Origin: Neobacillus driksii
GTDB lineage: Bacteria > Bacillota > Bacilli > Bacillales > Cytobacillaceae
Assembly: GCF_013409995.1 (NCBI RefSeq)
Contig: NZ_JACCBX010000004.1
Location: forward strand, 248,001 to 312,000
Length of the DNA stretch: 64,000 nucleotides
Direction: 5' to 3'
The notes beneath the pieces are model-generated. The model saw only the letters and a list, made by a program, of their open reading frames with translations. It was not told the DNA's origin and ran no database searches. The translations under genes were made by a program, and so were the position numbers. Below are positions 29,921 through 34,635 of the stretch, piece by piece. The stretch's first letter is position 1; each line of letters starts with the position of its first letter.

Positions 29921-29992
29921 TGACCTGTGAGGGATTCGAACCCACGACCCCTTCCCTGTCAAGGAAGTGCTCTCCCACTGAGCTAACAAGTC
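29921..29992 (-). tRNA. tRNA-Val (anticodon GAC)
   Basis: The minus-strand sequence folds as a cloverleaf: acceptor GACTTGT/ACAGGTC with one wobble pair, D-arm TAGCTCAGTGGGAGAGCA, anticodon stem CTTCC/GGAAG around loop TTGACAG (anticodon GAC, valine), and T-arm GTGGGTTCGAATCCCTC. The 3' CCA is not encoded. It is a single isolated tRNA gene with its own terminator. Confidence 0.93.
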
Positions 29993-30053: not shown

Positions 30054-30104
30054 GAACACCCGTTCTAAAATTCCTTGAATAAAGAACAAACGTTCGAATA
30101 TAAT
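30054..30104 (+). promoter_or_regulatory. SOS-type promoter with two LexA (DinR) boxes
   Basis: GAAC-N4-GTTC occurs at 30054-30065 and at 30084-30095, the exact core of the Bacillus LexA box. The centres are 30 bp apart (about three turns). A promoter with TTGAAT (30075-30080), an 18-bp spacer and TATAAT (30099-30104) is intact. The second box fills the spacer and the first lies just upstream of -35, which is the arrangement expected for repression. The target is the 74-codon gene at 30136. Confidence 0.8.
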
Positions 30105-30135
30105 AGTATATAACAACAGGAAAGGCGGGAAGGCA

Positions 30136-30360
30136 ATGGATGGACTTTTGTTACGTTCTATAGAGGAAAATATTCCGTTAGAGATGATTTATCTATCTGA
30201 GGATCATCAGATTTCGCAGCGCAAATTACTTGTGAAGGAAGTCAACGATGAGTATATTCGTGCTTTTTGTCTGCTCCGTAAACAGATTCGTACCTTCCGC
30301 CGGGAAAATATTTTATCCTTACTGCCAAATACTCGCTCCAATGACCGTTTCTTACATTAA
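30136..30360 (+). CDS. Minimal WYL-like protein under SOS control
   Basis: The 74 residues, IEENIPLEMIYLSEDHQISQRKLLVKEVNDEYIRAFCLLRKQIRTFRRENILSLLP, resemble a stripped-down WYL domain: beta strands, a YI+AFC segment where larger proteins have W-Y-L, and the ending RTFR-ENILS. WYL domains bind nucleic acid or nucleotide ligands in regulators, several of them linked to DNA damage (for example PafBC). There is no helix-turn-helix here. It starts at ATG 30136 behind GGGAAGG. Two LexA boxes in its promoter suggest a DNA-damage role (inference). Confidence 0.75.
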   Translation: MDGLLLRSIEENIPLEMIYLSEDHQISQRKLLVKEVNDEYIRAFCLLRKQIRTFRRENILSLLPNTRSNDRFLH

Positions 30361-30454: not shown

Positions 30455-31177
30455 ATGGAGATACCAAAAGGCACGATAAAAGAACATACCATTAAGAGCA
30501 ATGAGCTGGGAGAAGATATCCTGATTCTCATCTATTTACCTGCAAATTTCTCACCATTATATAAATACTCACTGTTAATCGCCCAGGATGGCAGAGATTA
30601 TTTTCAGCTTGGCAAAATCGGACGATTAGCAGATGAGTACCTTTTTAACCGAGAAATTGAGAATTTAATCATTGTTGGGATACCCTATAATAATGTAGGT
30701 GATCGCCGCAGCAAATACCACCCTGACGGTGAACAGCAACAACAGTATATCCGTTTTTTAGCACACGAATTAGTACCGTTCCTAGATCAAGAGTACCCTA
30801 CCTACCATATGGGCTCCACAAGAGCGCTAATTGGTGACTCACTTGGAGCAACCGTATCTTTAATGACTGCTCTCCAATATCCGCACAGTTTTGGAAAGGT
30901 TCTTTTACAATCACCGTACATAAATCAAAAGGTCTTGGACATGGTTAACAGCTTCACAGAAACAGAACTCTTAGAAATATATCACATCGTTGGTAATCAA
31001 GAAACAAAGGTACAAACCACTAACGGCAAAGTAAGTGACTTCCTCAGTCCAAATCGAAAGCTCTCAACTATCTTTACCGATAAGTCATTTACTTACTTCT
31101 ACGATGAGTTTAATGGCGACCATACATGGACATATTGGCAGCCAGATTTAAAGAGAGCTCTTAAGATGATGTTTTAA
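30455..31177 (+). CDS. yjcH: Esterase-fold protein YjcH
   Basis: The 240-residue protein of the alpha/beta-hydrolase esterase (Fes/YbbA-like) class shows SLLIAQDGRDYF, VGIPYNNVGDRRSKYHPDG, and the nucleophile motif ALIGDSLGATVSL (Ser). An acidic stretch FTDKSFTYFYDEFNGDHTW carries the probable His. Sequence and order (yjcH, yjcG, yjcF) match the B. subtilis genes. It starts at ATG 30455 behind GGGGGAA. The physiological substrate is unknown. Confidence 0.85.
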   Translation: MEIPKGTIKEHTIKSNELGEDILILIYLPANFSPLYKYSLLIAQDGRDYFQLGKIGRLADEYLFNREIENLIIVGIPYNNVGDRRSKYHPDGEQQQQYIRFLAHELVPFLDQEYPTYHMGSTRALIGDSLGATVSLMTALQYPHSFGKVLLQSPYINQKVLDMVNSFTETELLEIYHIVGNQETKVQTTNGKVSDFLSPNRKLSTIFTDKSFTYFYDEFNGDHTWTYWQPDLKRALKMMF

Positions 31178-32346: not shown

Positions 32347-34635
32347 ATGAAAATTGCTATGCACCAAAATCAAAGAATTGTTCTTGACCAATTAGGAAGA
32401 GAACAATATCAACTCCTATATATGCATGGAAAAAATGGTGAATTATCCTGTCCTGTTTGCCACGAAAAAGTCCGGTTATTTCTCGGAATTAAGAAAGAGC
32501 CCTATTTTTATCATATAAAATCGCCCGAACATAAATGCCCAGAACCAGTTATTGAAGAAGAATTGGAACCAGTCATTGTAGAACGGAATGGGTTTCGTAT
32601 CCCCCAAGGAAGAACGATTATTGAAACTACAAGAAATACAAGCTTATACCGTCCATCCAAAACTATAGAATGCTCCCTTCCATTTAAAAGAACTGAAGGT
32701 GTAAATCATCTTGCTAATGACACCTATTTAAGAGAACTGGCAGCAAACGGAGTTATACTTGATAAAAGTCAAGCAGCAGCTGTCGTCGAAACACAAGGAG
32801 CATTATTAGTTCTTGCTGGTGCGGGGAGCGGCAAAACTAGAGTACTTACAGCACGTACTGCTTACATGCTGAATGTAAATAAAATTGATCCGCGTACCAT
32901 TTTACTCGTCACCTTTACCTCAAAAGCAGCGGGAGAAATGAAAACTCGTTTACTTGCCTATCCTCAGATTAAGAAGGACCAAATAGGAAAGCTGGTGACA
33001 GGCACCTTTCACAGTATTTTTTATCGTATTCTTATGTTCCATGAAGGAAACAATTGGTCATCAGATCGTCTGTTGAAGAAAGAATGGCAGCGCGATAAGA
33101 TCTTGAAAGAGGCTGGTAAGGCAATCGAACTGTCTGAAAAGGAATTTGCTTATGATTTAGCACTTCAGCAAATTGGATTCTGGAAGAATTCACTTCTTTT
33201 CCCTCATGAAGTGAAGCCGCTTACTGATTGGGAAGAAAAAGCTGCCTACCTATATAAGAAATATGAGGAATATAAAACACAAAAAGGTCTATTTGATTTT
33301 GACGACATGTTGATTGGCTGCTATCAGCTGTTGAAAAGCTCCCCGTCTCTACTTGAACTCTACCAAAATCGCTTTCAGTATTTTTTGATTGATGAATTTC
33401 AGGATATCAATAAGGTTCAATATGAGCTGATAAAGCTGCTGTCAGACAAGCATAAAAACGTTTGTGCTGTTGGGGATGACGATCAGGCCATCTATTCCTT
33501 CCGAGGTAGTGACCCTAGTTATCTTTTAGAGTTTGAAAAAGACTTTCCTTATGCAAAGTTGGTTACACTAGAGCAAAACTACCGCTCATCACATGAAATT
33601 GTCTCTGCGGCAAATGAGATGATTGCGAAGAATAAGGTTCGAAGAGTAAAGAAAATGAAGGCACAATTTGAATCAAGTATGTCTCCCATCCTCTTTTTCC
33701 CTTTTGATGAGGAAGAAGAAGCAACGATGATTGTATCCGATATCCAAGAGAAGATTGTACAGGGAGCAAAACCATCTGAATTTGCTATTTTATATCGAAC
33801 AAATGCCGGTTCTCGTGCTGTATTTGAACGGTTGGCTAGTTCAAACCTGCCGTTTAAAATTGATTTGGATTCAGAGGCTTTTTATGAACGGCATATTGTG
33901 AGAAGCGTTCTTTCTTTTCTAAAGATAAGCTTAGATGAAGATGACCATCAGGCATTATCTGCCATTTTACCGAGTCTTTTTTTGAGTCAAACGGTGCTTA
34001 AAGATATAAAAGCTGAAAGCATACTGCAAGATTGTACCTATCTAGAAGCCCTTTCTCATTTAAAAACAAAGCATGCTTTTCAAGAAAAGAAATTAAAAAA
34101 AGCAGTACAGCTCATTCGCTCATTGAAATTTGGGTCCCCATTAAAGTCGATTGAAACGATTGAAAAAGACCTGGGTTACCTTGATTTTTTGAAAAAACGC
34201 GGCACTGAATCGAATCAGCAAGATAAAGGTTCTGATGATTTAAAAGATCTAAAAGTTGCAGCCAAATGCTTTACCAGTATTCAAGCTTTCTTGTTTCATG
34301 CTGAACATATGACGGCAATGAACAAGGAGATTAAAAATTTAAGCAAGCATTTTCCCGATGCTATTAGTCTAAGTACTATCCACCGGGCTAAGGGATTAGA
34401 ATATAAAAATGTATATGTCATAGGAGCAGTAGATGGCAGTCTACCGCATGATTACGCATTGGATGGTTTAAGAAATGGTGACTTTGCAGCAATTGAAGAA
34501 GAAAGAAGACTTTTTTATGTGGCGATGACACGTGCTAAGCATGAGCTTCTTATGTCTGTTCCCCAAAATCGAAGAGGCAAAAAAGCGAATCCTTCACGGT
34601 TTTTATCACCTCTAATGAAGCGTAAGAAAAAATAA
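32347..34635 (+). CDS. yjcD: UvrD/Rep-family ATP-dependent DNA helicase YjcD
   Basis: The 762-residue superfamily 1A helicase has the Q-motif area LDKSQAAAVVET, Walker A GAGSGKT (159-165), motif Ia TFTSKAAGEM, TGTFHSIF, Walker B-like FLIDEFQDIN, motif III VGDDDQAIYSFRG, motif IV LEQNYRS, motif V STIHRAKGLEYKNV and motif VI VAMTRAKHEL. N-terminal to the helicase is a zinc-ribbon-like module (Cys35, Cys38, His56, His62, Cys64) much like the start of CoiA at 51857. Length and layout match B. subtilis YjcD. Role: DNA repair or recombination, not specified. Confidence 0.93.
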   Translation: MKIAMHQNQRIVLDQLGREQYQLLYMHGKNGELSCPVCHEKVRLFLGIKKEPYFYHIKSPEHKCPEPVIEEELEPVIVERNGFRIPQGRTIIETTRNTSLYRPSKTIECSLPFKRTEGVNHLANDTYLRELAANGVILDKSQAAAVVETQGALLVLAGAGSGKTRVLTARTAYMLNVNKIDPRTILLVTFTSKAAGEMKTRLLAYPQIKKDQIGKLVTGTFHSIFYRILMFHEGNNWSSDRLLKKEWQRDKILKEAGKAIELSEKEFAYDLALQQIGFWKNSLLFPHEVKPLTDWEEKAAYLYKKYEEYKTQKGLFDFDDMLIGCYQLLKSSPSLLELYQNRFQYFLIDEFQDINKVQYELIKLLSDKHKNVCAVGDDDQAIYSFRGSDPSYLLEFEKDFPYAKLVTLEQNYRSSHEIVSAANEMIAKNKVRRVKKMKAQFESSMSPILFFPFDEEEEATMIVSDIQEKIVQGAKPSEFAILYRTNAGSRAVFERLASSNLPFKIDLDSEAFYERHIVRSVLSFLKISLDEDDHQALSAILPSLFLSQTVLKDIKAESILQDCTYLEALSHLKTKHAFQEKKLKKAVQLIRSLKFGSPLKSIETIEKDLGYLDFLKKRGTESNQQDKGSDDLKDLKVAAKCFTSIQAFLFHAEHMTAMNKEIKNLSKHFPDAISLSTIHRAKGLEYKNVYVIGAVDGSLPHDYALDGLRNGDFAAIEEERRLFYVAMTRAKHELLMSVPQNRRGKKANPSRFLSPLMKRKKK

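Follow-up and report, generated by a model that had tools for sequence, protein, structure and literature searches.

A conserved small gene behind a LexA-type operator in Neobacillus driksii is predicted to encode a stand-alone WYL domain

The window, that is, the whole stretch of 64,000 nucleotides of Neobacillus driksii that was analyzed, contains a gene for a 74-residue protein preceded by a compact promoter region (Table 1). A scan of the window sequence recovered the two exact GAAC-N4-GTTC boxes announced in the preliminary description, GAACACCCGTTC and GAACAAACGTTC, with a start-to-start distance of 30 bp. They frame a TTGAAT/TATAAT promoter that matches 10 of 12 consensus positions overall: the distal box ends 9 nt before the -35 hexamer, and the proximal one is located, as had also been claimed, inside the 18-nt spacer. 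A GAAC-N4-GTTC operator thus overlaps the promoter, as expected of the LexA (SOS) regulon. Sequences resembling the probable ribosome-binding site, AAAGGCGG, were present in most of the Neobacillus loci inspected.

Table 1. Features of the locus, in window coordinates
Feature	Position	Strand	Basis or remark
Distal LexA (SOS) box GAACACCCGTTC	30054..30065	.	Exact match; -82 from ATG
-35 hexamer TTGAAT	30075..30080	+	4/6 consensus positions
Proximal LexA box GAACAAACGTTC	30084..30095	.	Exact match; within promoter spacer
-10 hexamer TATAAT	30099..30104	+	Perfect match, 18-nt spacer
Probable ribosome-binding site AAAGGCGG	30121..30128	+	Sequence reading
Gene for the 74-aa predicted stand-alone WYL protein	30136..30360 (stop codon included)	+	ORF, homologs, structure model, dN/dS
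Arg29 codon	30220..30222	+	Aligns with DdPif1 R464; kept in 134/134 sequences of three sets
Arg48, Arg52, Arg55 codon stretch, putative nucleic acid contacts	30277..30300	+	Aligned with DdPif1 R491, R495, R498

Upstream, a tRNA-Val gene (29921-29992, minus strand) is divergent from the 74-aa ORF. A promoter-like site on the minus strand (TTGACT/TATAAT, 30039-30012, 11/12 consensus positions), which probably belongs to this tRNA, lies with its start 14 nt away from the distal LexA box, and LexA might therefore influence tRNA-Val transcription. Downstream, no terminator was found between the 74-aa gene and an esterase gene at 30455, and read-through into the latter is possible. Since the gene that follows the WYL gene varies between genera, we set aside cotranscription with the esterase and treated the 74-aa gene as its own transcription unit. 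Further along, after the esterase and genes for 2'-5' RNA ligase-like and GNAT proteins, the window encodes a 762-aa UvrD/PcrA-like helicase (32347-34635) with a CoiA-type N-terminal domain (26.2 bits, Pfam cutoff of 26.3).

The presence of two boxes is not informative by itself. The number of exact boxes expected in 64 kb is 0.69, and shuffling the window 100 times produced at least two of them in 13 cases. The longer, 14-bp Bacillus LexA consensus is CGAAC-N4-GTTYG; only the proximal box fits it, with one mismatch, and 89 of 100 shuffles equaled that. Genome-wide, we counted 56 exact 12-bp sites versus 78 for the reversed control pattern. Box counts in the window or in the genome, being no higher than chance, therefore prove nothing and were rejected as evidence; placement and conservation carry the case. 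LexA itself is encoded in this genome (263.7 bits), and the motif recurs at genes expected to belong to the SOS regulon. The region between lexA and a divergent gene encoding a LysM protein, which we take to be yneA-like, holds three sites, each with one mismatch. All four yolD genes of the genome are associated with a LexA-type motif (at most one mismatch), exact at some of them. An exact box directly precedes the likely start of two of these genes, and a third has a pair of one-mismatch sites. The fourth follows a Y-family polymerase gene (PF00817); the called frame of the polymerase opens with an exact box and a site with one mismatch, and another exact site is located well within it.

One of the outcomes that, according to the preliminary description, would refute its case was a lack of conserved boxes upstream of orthologs; in the relatives, the boxes are conserved. 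Within the genus, the 160 bp upstream contained at least one exact box in 29 of 31 loci (that of the window included) and at least two in 15 of them. A set of 39 loci (24 Neobacillus, 12 Bacillus sp., and 1 each of Paenibacillus sp., Siminovitchia, and Virgibacillus), whose species largely overlap with those of the former and which retains the broken copies L127 and L128, carried the proximal box with at most one mismatch in 38/39 cases (exact in 29/39) and the distal one in 34/39 (exact in 17/39), and the remaining 229,319 bp of this set held 2 exact sites. A box with at most one mismatch was present within 200 bp upstream in all of the 40 further loci, 37 of them from 18 other genera and 3 of them same-genus paralogs. 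Outside the family, we took the 60 best-scoring matches of the order, in listed order; this set skips G216 and G259 (stop inside the match), mixes orthologs and paralogs, and includes several matches from one genome. The 130 bp upstream of these matches showed an exact box in 40/60 loci and a box with at most one mismatch in 58/60, versus 1/661 and 20/661, respectively, in control windows of equal length, in which L157 and L168, near contig ends, were not properly excluded, an effect that could only raise the control count.

The arrangement of box and promoter is conserved as well. In three sets of loci, a box followed within 8 nt by a -10 hexamer (at least 5/6 positions) was found in 38/39, 38/39, and 50/60 cases, and the gap between them was exactly 3 nt long in 33/39, 33/39, and 29/60 (95/138 overall). 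The script took the first box that had a -10 at most 8 nt away, and these counts retain L127 and L128; the broken copy L086 was left out here and in the residue and dN/dS counts below. A second upstream box, where present, was spaced by 29 to 31 bp in 27/27, 22/24, and 9/11 loci, and the -35 hexamer was weak in many loci of the three sets, mostly matching 3 to 5 of 6 positions. Start codons in the 40-locus, order-set, and box/-10 counts were chosen by script, and the distances to the ATG may be off. Because the boxes are conserved in relatives, LexA control of the 74-aa gene is very likely on comparative grounds.

Homologs, paralogs included, were matched in 58 of the 60 Neobacillus genomes and in 169 of the 193 genomes of the family. 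The tallies for the order (190/249) and the class (116/200) are upper bounds, those of the class also counting WYL domains in ORFs of roughly 300 aa. The family profile had one match in the present genome, the window protein. The gene is dispensable, since it was unmatched in two of the 60 genus genomes, and three others (G030, G039, and G051) matched it only in disjoint or incomplete parts. It is under purifying selection, the median dN/dS being 0.11 among those pairs (77 of 595) whose synonymous sites were not saturated. A tRNA-Val(gac) was found in the stretch around the gene, at varying distance, in 20 of the 22 loci scanned (17 from the 40-locus set and 5 from the 39-locus set), which supports orthology across genera. 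L049, L050, and L081 encode a phage-type integrase (PF00589) near the tRNA-Val(gac) beside the WYL gene, and mobile elements may therefore integrate at this tRNA, next to an SOS promoter.

The product had been described as a minimal WYL-like fold devoid of a DNA-binding domain, for which a comparison with the WYL profile was proposed. In this comparison, the match covered 63 of the 70 positions of PF13280 at a score of 19.9 bits, slightly below the cutoff of 21.8. None of the proteins of the genome, that of the window included, matched the Pfam WYL model at an E value of 0.001, and NCBIfam gave no match for the 74-aa protein. Of 38 aligned family members, 37 matched PF13280 at E values up to 0.01, and of three distant relatives, two reached the cutoff (21.9 and 26.2 bits) and one did not (21.7 bits). 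In PHROGs, the protein matched an uncharacterized family (phrog_6785; E = 1.7e-12). An AlphaFold2 model built from 38 aligned sequences (pLDDT, 91.1; pTM, 0.76) has one helix and five strands. Foldseek ranked PafBC (6sj9) first, the only match with an E value below 0.001, followed by BrxR and CapW and then by Hfq. VIA gave a Z of 10.5 and an rmsd of 1.5 over 67 residues to PafBC; Hfq and Sm chains reached a Z of 9.3 to 10.1 and are, by the rule of the tool (Z within 1), tied with PafBC. With this tie in mind, the predicted model has the Sm-like barrel fold of solved WYL domains. Neither the Pfam scan nor the structure model revealed an HTH or other DNA-binding domain in the 74 residues, only WYL. 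Sequence, relatives, and structure model all support the description, and the protein, as modeled, is a single stand-alone WYL/Sm-like barrel domain.

A sequence profile comparison placed the Pif1 helicases 8bnv (E = 1.1e-12) and 8bns (E = 1.7e-10) closest among PDB chains; both match through their C-terminal WYL stretch. In Pif1 (DdPif1, the 8bnv chain sequence, and TePif1), this domain is the tail of a helicase, whereas here it makes up the whole protein and is encoded behind a LexA-type promoter. According to excerpts of PMC9964779, single-stranded DNA (ssDNA) was modeled on the DdPif1 WYL domain via R464, R491, R495, R498, and R501, the crystals being of the helicase core and both the WYL part and its contacts being modeled, and the WYL domain of TePif1 is cited as binding the 5' end of ssDNA. 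Counted along the profile alignment, the five arginines align with R29, R48, R52, R55, and N58, so that four of them are kept in the window protein and the fifth is replaced by asparagine. R29 was invariant in three sets of sequences (35/35, 39/39, and 60/60). R52 was kept in 35/35, 39/39, and 58/60 sequences, with lysine in the other two (132/134 in total), and position 48 was arginine or lysine in the same proportions (35/35, 39/39, and 58/60; 132/134 in total). Position 55 was arginine or lysine in 35/35, 31/39, and 41/60 sequences, position 58 was mostly asparagine across the three sets, and C45 was kept in 133 of 134 sequences. The tyrosine of the WYL motif, Y40, was kept in only 13/39 and 18/60 sequences outside the main genus set. 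We read R29, R52, C45, and position 48 as the positions described for WYL domains in the literature. PafB requires conserved WYL arginines to bind ssDNA, and arginine mutants lose this ability (excerpts of PMC11804915); their correspondence to residues of the window protein is our reading of the motif. Since the Pif1-aligned arginines are kept and those of PafB are needed for ssDNA binding, ssDNA is, by analogy, the most likely ligand of the 74-aa protein. RNA is a possible ligand on the structural model, because Hfq and Sm proteins tie with PafBC in the structural alignment.

The modeled fold is common to the WYL transcription factors PafBC, DriD, CapW, and BrxR. Two of them, PafBC and DriD, are ssDNA-binding proteins of the DNA damage response. 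All these regulators carry an HTH, unlike the 74-aa protein, and DriD is summarized in the literature consulted as SOS independent, whereas the 74-aa gene is itself under a LexA-type operator. RspWYL1 of type VI-D CRISPR systems is an accessory protein with a WYL domain; it is likened here by its summary description, and it differs in being a CRISPR accessory. Standalone SOS domains are discussed in PMC3765255, in the excerpts of which none resembles the 74-aa WYL protein. The titles and abstract beginnings of the open-access literature searched yielded no description of a LexA-controlled single-domain WYL protein, in agreement with the preliminary description, which did not know it as a described SOS gene.

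We favor, at somewhat better than even confidence, a reading in which LexA represses the locus as an SOS unit of one gene, whose WYL product would bind ssDNA as an accessory that tunes repair, translesion synthesis, or SOS signaling. In the undamaged cell, LexA would occupy the two boxes, about three helical turns apart, and, with the inner one covering the -35/-10 spacer, RNA polymerase would be blocked. Upon damage, RecA assembled on ssDNA would induce the self-cleavage of LexA, and the 74-aa gene would be expressed. Its product may then bind ssDNA at stalled or broken forks via Arg29, Arg48, Arg52, and Arg55, in the manner of the Pif1, PafBC, and DriD WYL domains, and would act as an accessory factor and not as a transcription factor of its own. 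Several of the observations above speak against this reading: the asparagine at position 58, the limited conservation of Y40, the modeled nature of the Pif1 contacts, the lack of the HTH that known ssDNA-sensing WYL regulators carry, the tie with Hfq and Sm proteins, the missing profile link to YolD, and the dispensability of the gene.

The protein could instead belong to the SOS mutasome of Gram-positive bacteria as a YolD-like subunit, binding a Y-family polymerase (UvrX/YqjW type) or RecA and not naked DNA, as proposed for YolD, which we consider unlikely. According to excerpts of PMC6511836 and PMC4012209, YolD (PF08863) is assigned to the WYL-like superfamily, is encoded in SOS operons, and is SOS induced, and some paralogs of the 74-aa gene adjoin yolD. 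This is the case in 12 of the 60 order loci, as judged by a profile made from YolD proteins confirmed by Pfam and others that look alike. In three other loci, L065, L075, and L083, a yolD gene recognized by Pfam is divergent from the paralog across the box region, and L083 also has a truncated yolD (42.5 bits) directly after the paralog. The association of one of the four yolD genes of the present genome with a Y-family polymerase gene, mentioned above, points the same way. However, the window gene is not near yolD, and the protein lacks the N-terminal part of YolD. It had no match to PF08863 at E values up to 1, and hhalign gave the link between the profiles a probability of only 6.9%; membership in YolD was rejected on these profiles, YolD being kept as a functional rival. 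Furthermore, among the 15 genomes of the order that lack YolD, the family match was strong in 3 (G256, G271, and G337), weak in 3, and absent in 9. The three strong matches weaken a strict dependence on YolD, and nine of the 15 genomes have neither.

Other small genes recur around the paralogs. In L065, L075, L083, and L085, the divergent operon on the minus strand upstream of the paralog has, immediately behind its yolD-like gene, a gene for a similar-looking protein of 119 to 132 aa; this protein had no Pfam match in the two copies scanned (L065 and L083). In L073, L078, and L090, a similar-looking protein of 77 to 82 aa is encoded divergently from the WYL paralog across the LexA boxes, and its L073 copy had no Pfam match.

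Paralogs are also found next to LexA-type DNA-binding domains (PF01726). In eight loci (L079, L084, L087, L088, L092, L142, L144, and L158), the paralog is followed by a frame of 71 to 98 aa with such a domain and no match to the S24 peptidase, L084 having two of these frames in a row, and in L161 the WYL paralog and a peptidase-less LexA-type domain are fused in one frame. These units of WYL and solo LexA-type domain sit behind LexA-type boxes, and three of them (L087, L088, and L092) are on plasmids. In L164, the paralog is tail to tail with a full-length lexA encoding both the S24 peptidase and the DNA-binding domain. Matches were found in 24 phage and 11 plasmid records, and the 6 of these 35 that we examined (5 plasmids and 1 phage) all have an exact box at most 55 bp upstream of the match, the three plasmid units just named being those among the six that then carry the LexA-type domain. 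A number of the phage and plasmid copies are either annotated as hypothetical or lack an annotated gene.

These neighborhoods are what speaks for a regulatory subunit acting on LexA boxes, which would partner LexA or a solo LexA-type DNA-binding domain in an ssDNA-dependent SOS feedback. For the window protein, we find this rather improbable: it has no DNA-binding domain, its gene has no such neighbor, and a LexA-type DNA-binding domain occurs within about 1 kb in only 5 of the 60 order loci (L161 and L164 counted), one of them being a full LexA. The paralogs beside or fused to a peptidase-less LexA-type domain suggest a split SOS regulator, in which the stand-alone WYL domain would be the damage-sensing half, the solo LexA-type domain would read the boxes, and the ssDNA-loaded WYL half would decide the output, with the chromosomal copy of the window working in trans on the same boxes. 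We regard this proposal as doubtful. If true, LexA boxes could also be read by a second route, one directly dependent on ssDNA and not on RecA-driven cleavage of LexA. Finally, a damage-induced, Hfq/Sm-like RNA-binding protein acting on transcripts would fit the tied Hfq and Sm chains and their presence among the Foldseek matches, but it is very improbable, because the best sequence relatives are WYL domains with roles in DNA repair or DNA damage, Foldseek ranks WYL chains first, and the identity to Hfq is 9 to 17%.

Candidate roles in the cell are an accessory function in repair or in the mutasome, feedback on the SOS response, and binding of RNA, the LexA-repressed unit with an ssDNA-binding accessory being the reading we prefer. 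The best reading of the sequence data is that the 74-aa gene is a conserved SOS-type gene for a stand-alone WYL protein, undescribed as far as the literature was searched. Such a gene is easily missed by annotation, because it is small and its product falls just under the Pfam cutoff. As the LexA-type operator is kept in almost every relative examined and the only domain is of an ssDNA-sensing type, the protein is likely to be an overlooked component of DNA damage tolerance in Bacillales. The paralogs beside LexA-type domains suggest, in turn, how mobile elements might read or rewire the SOS switch of their host.
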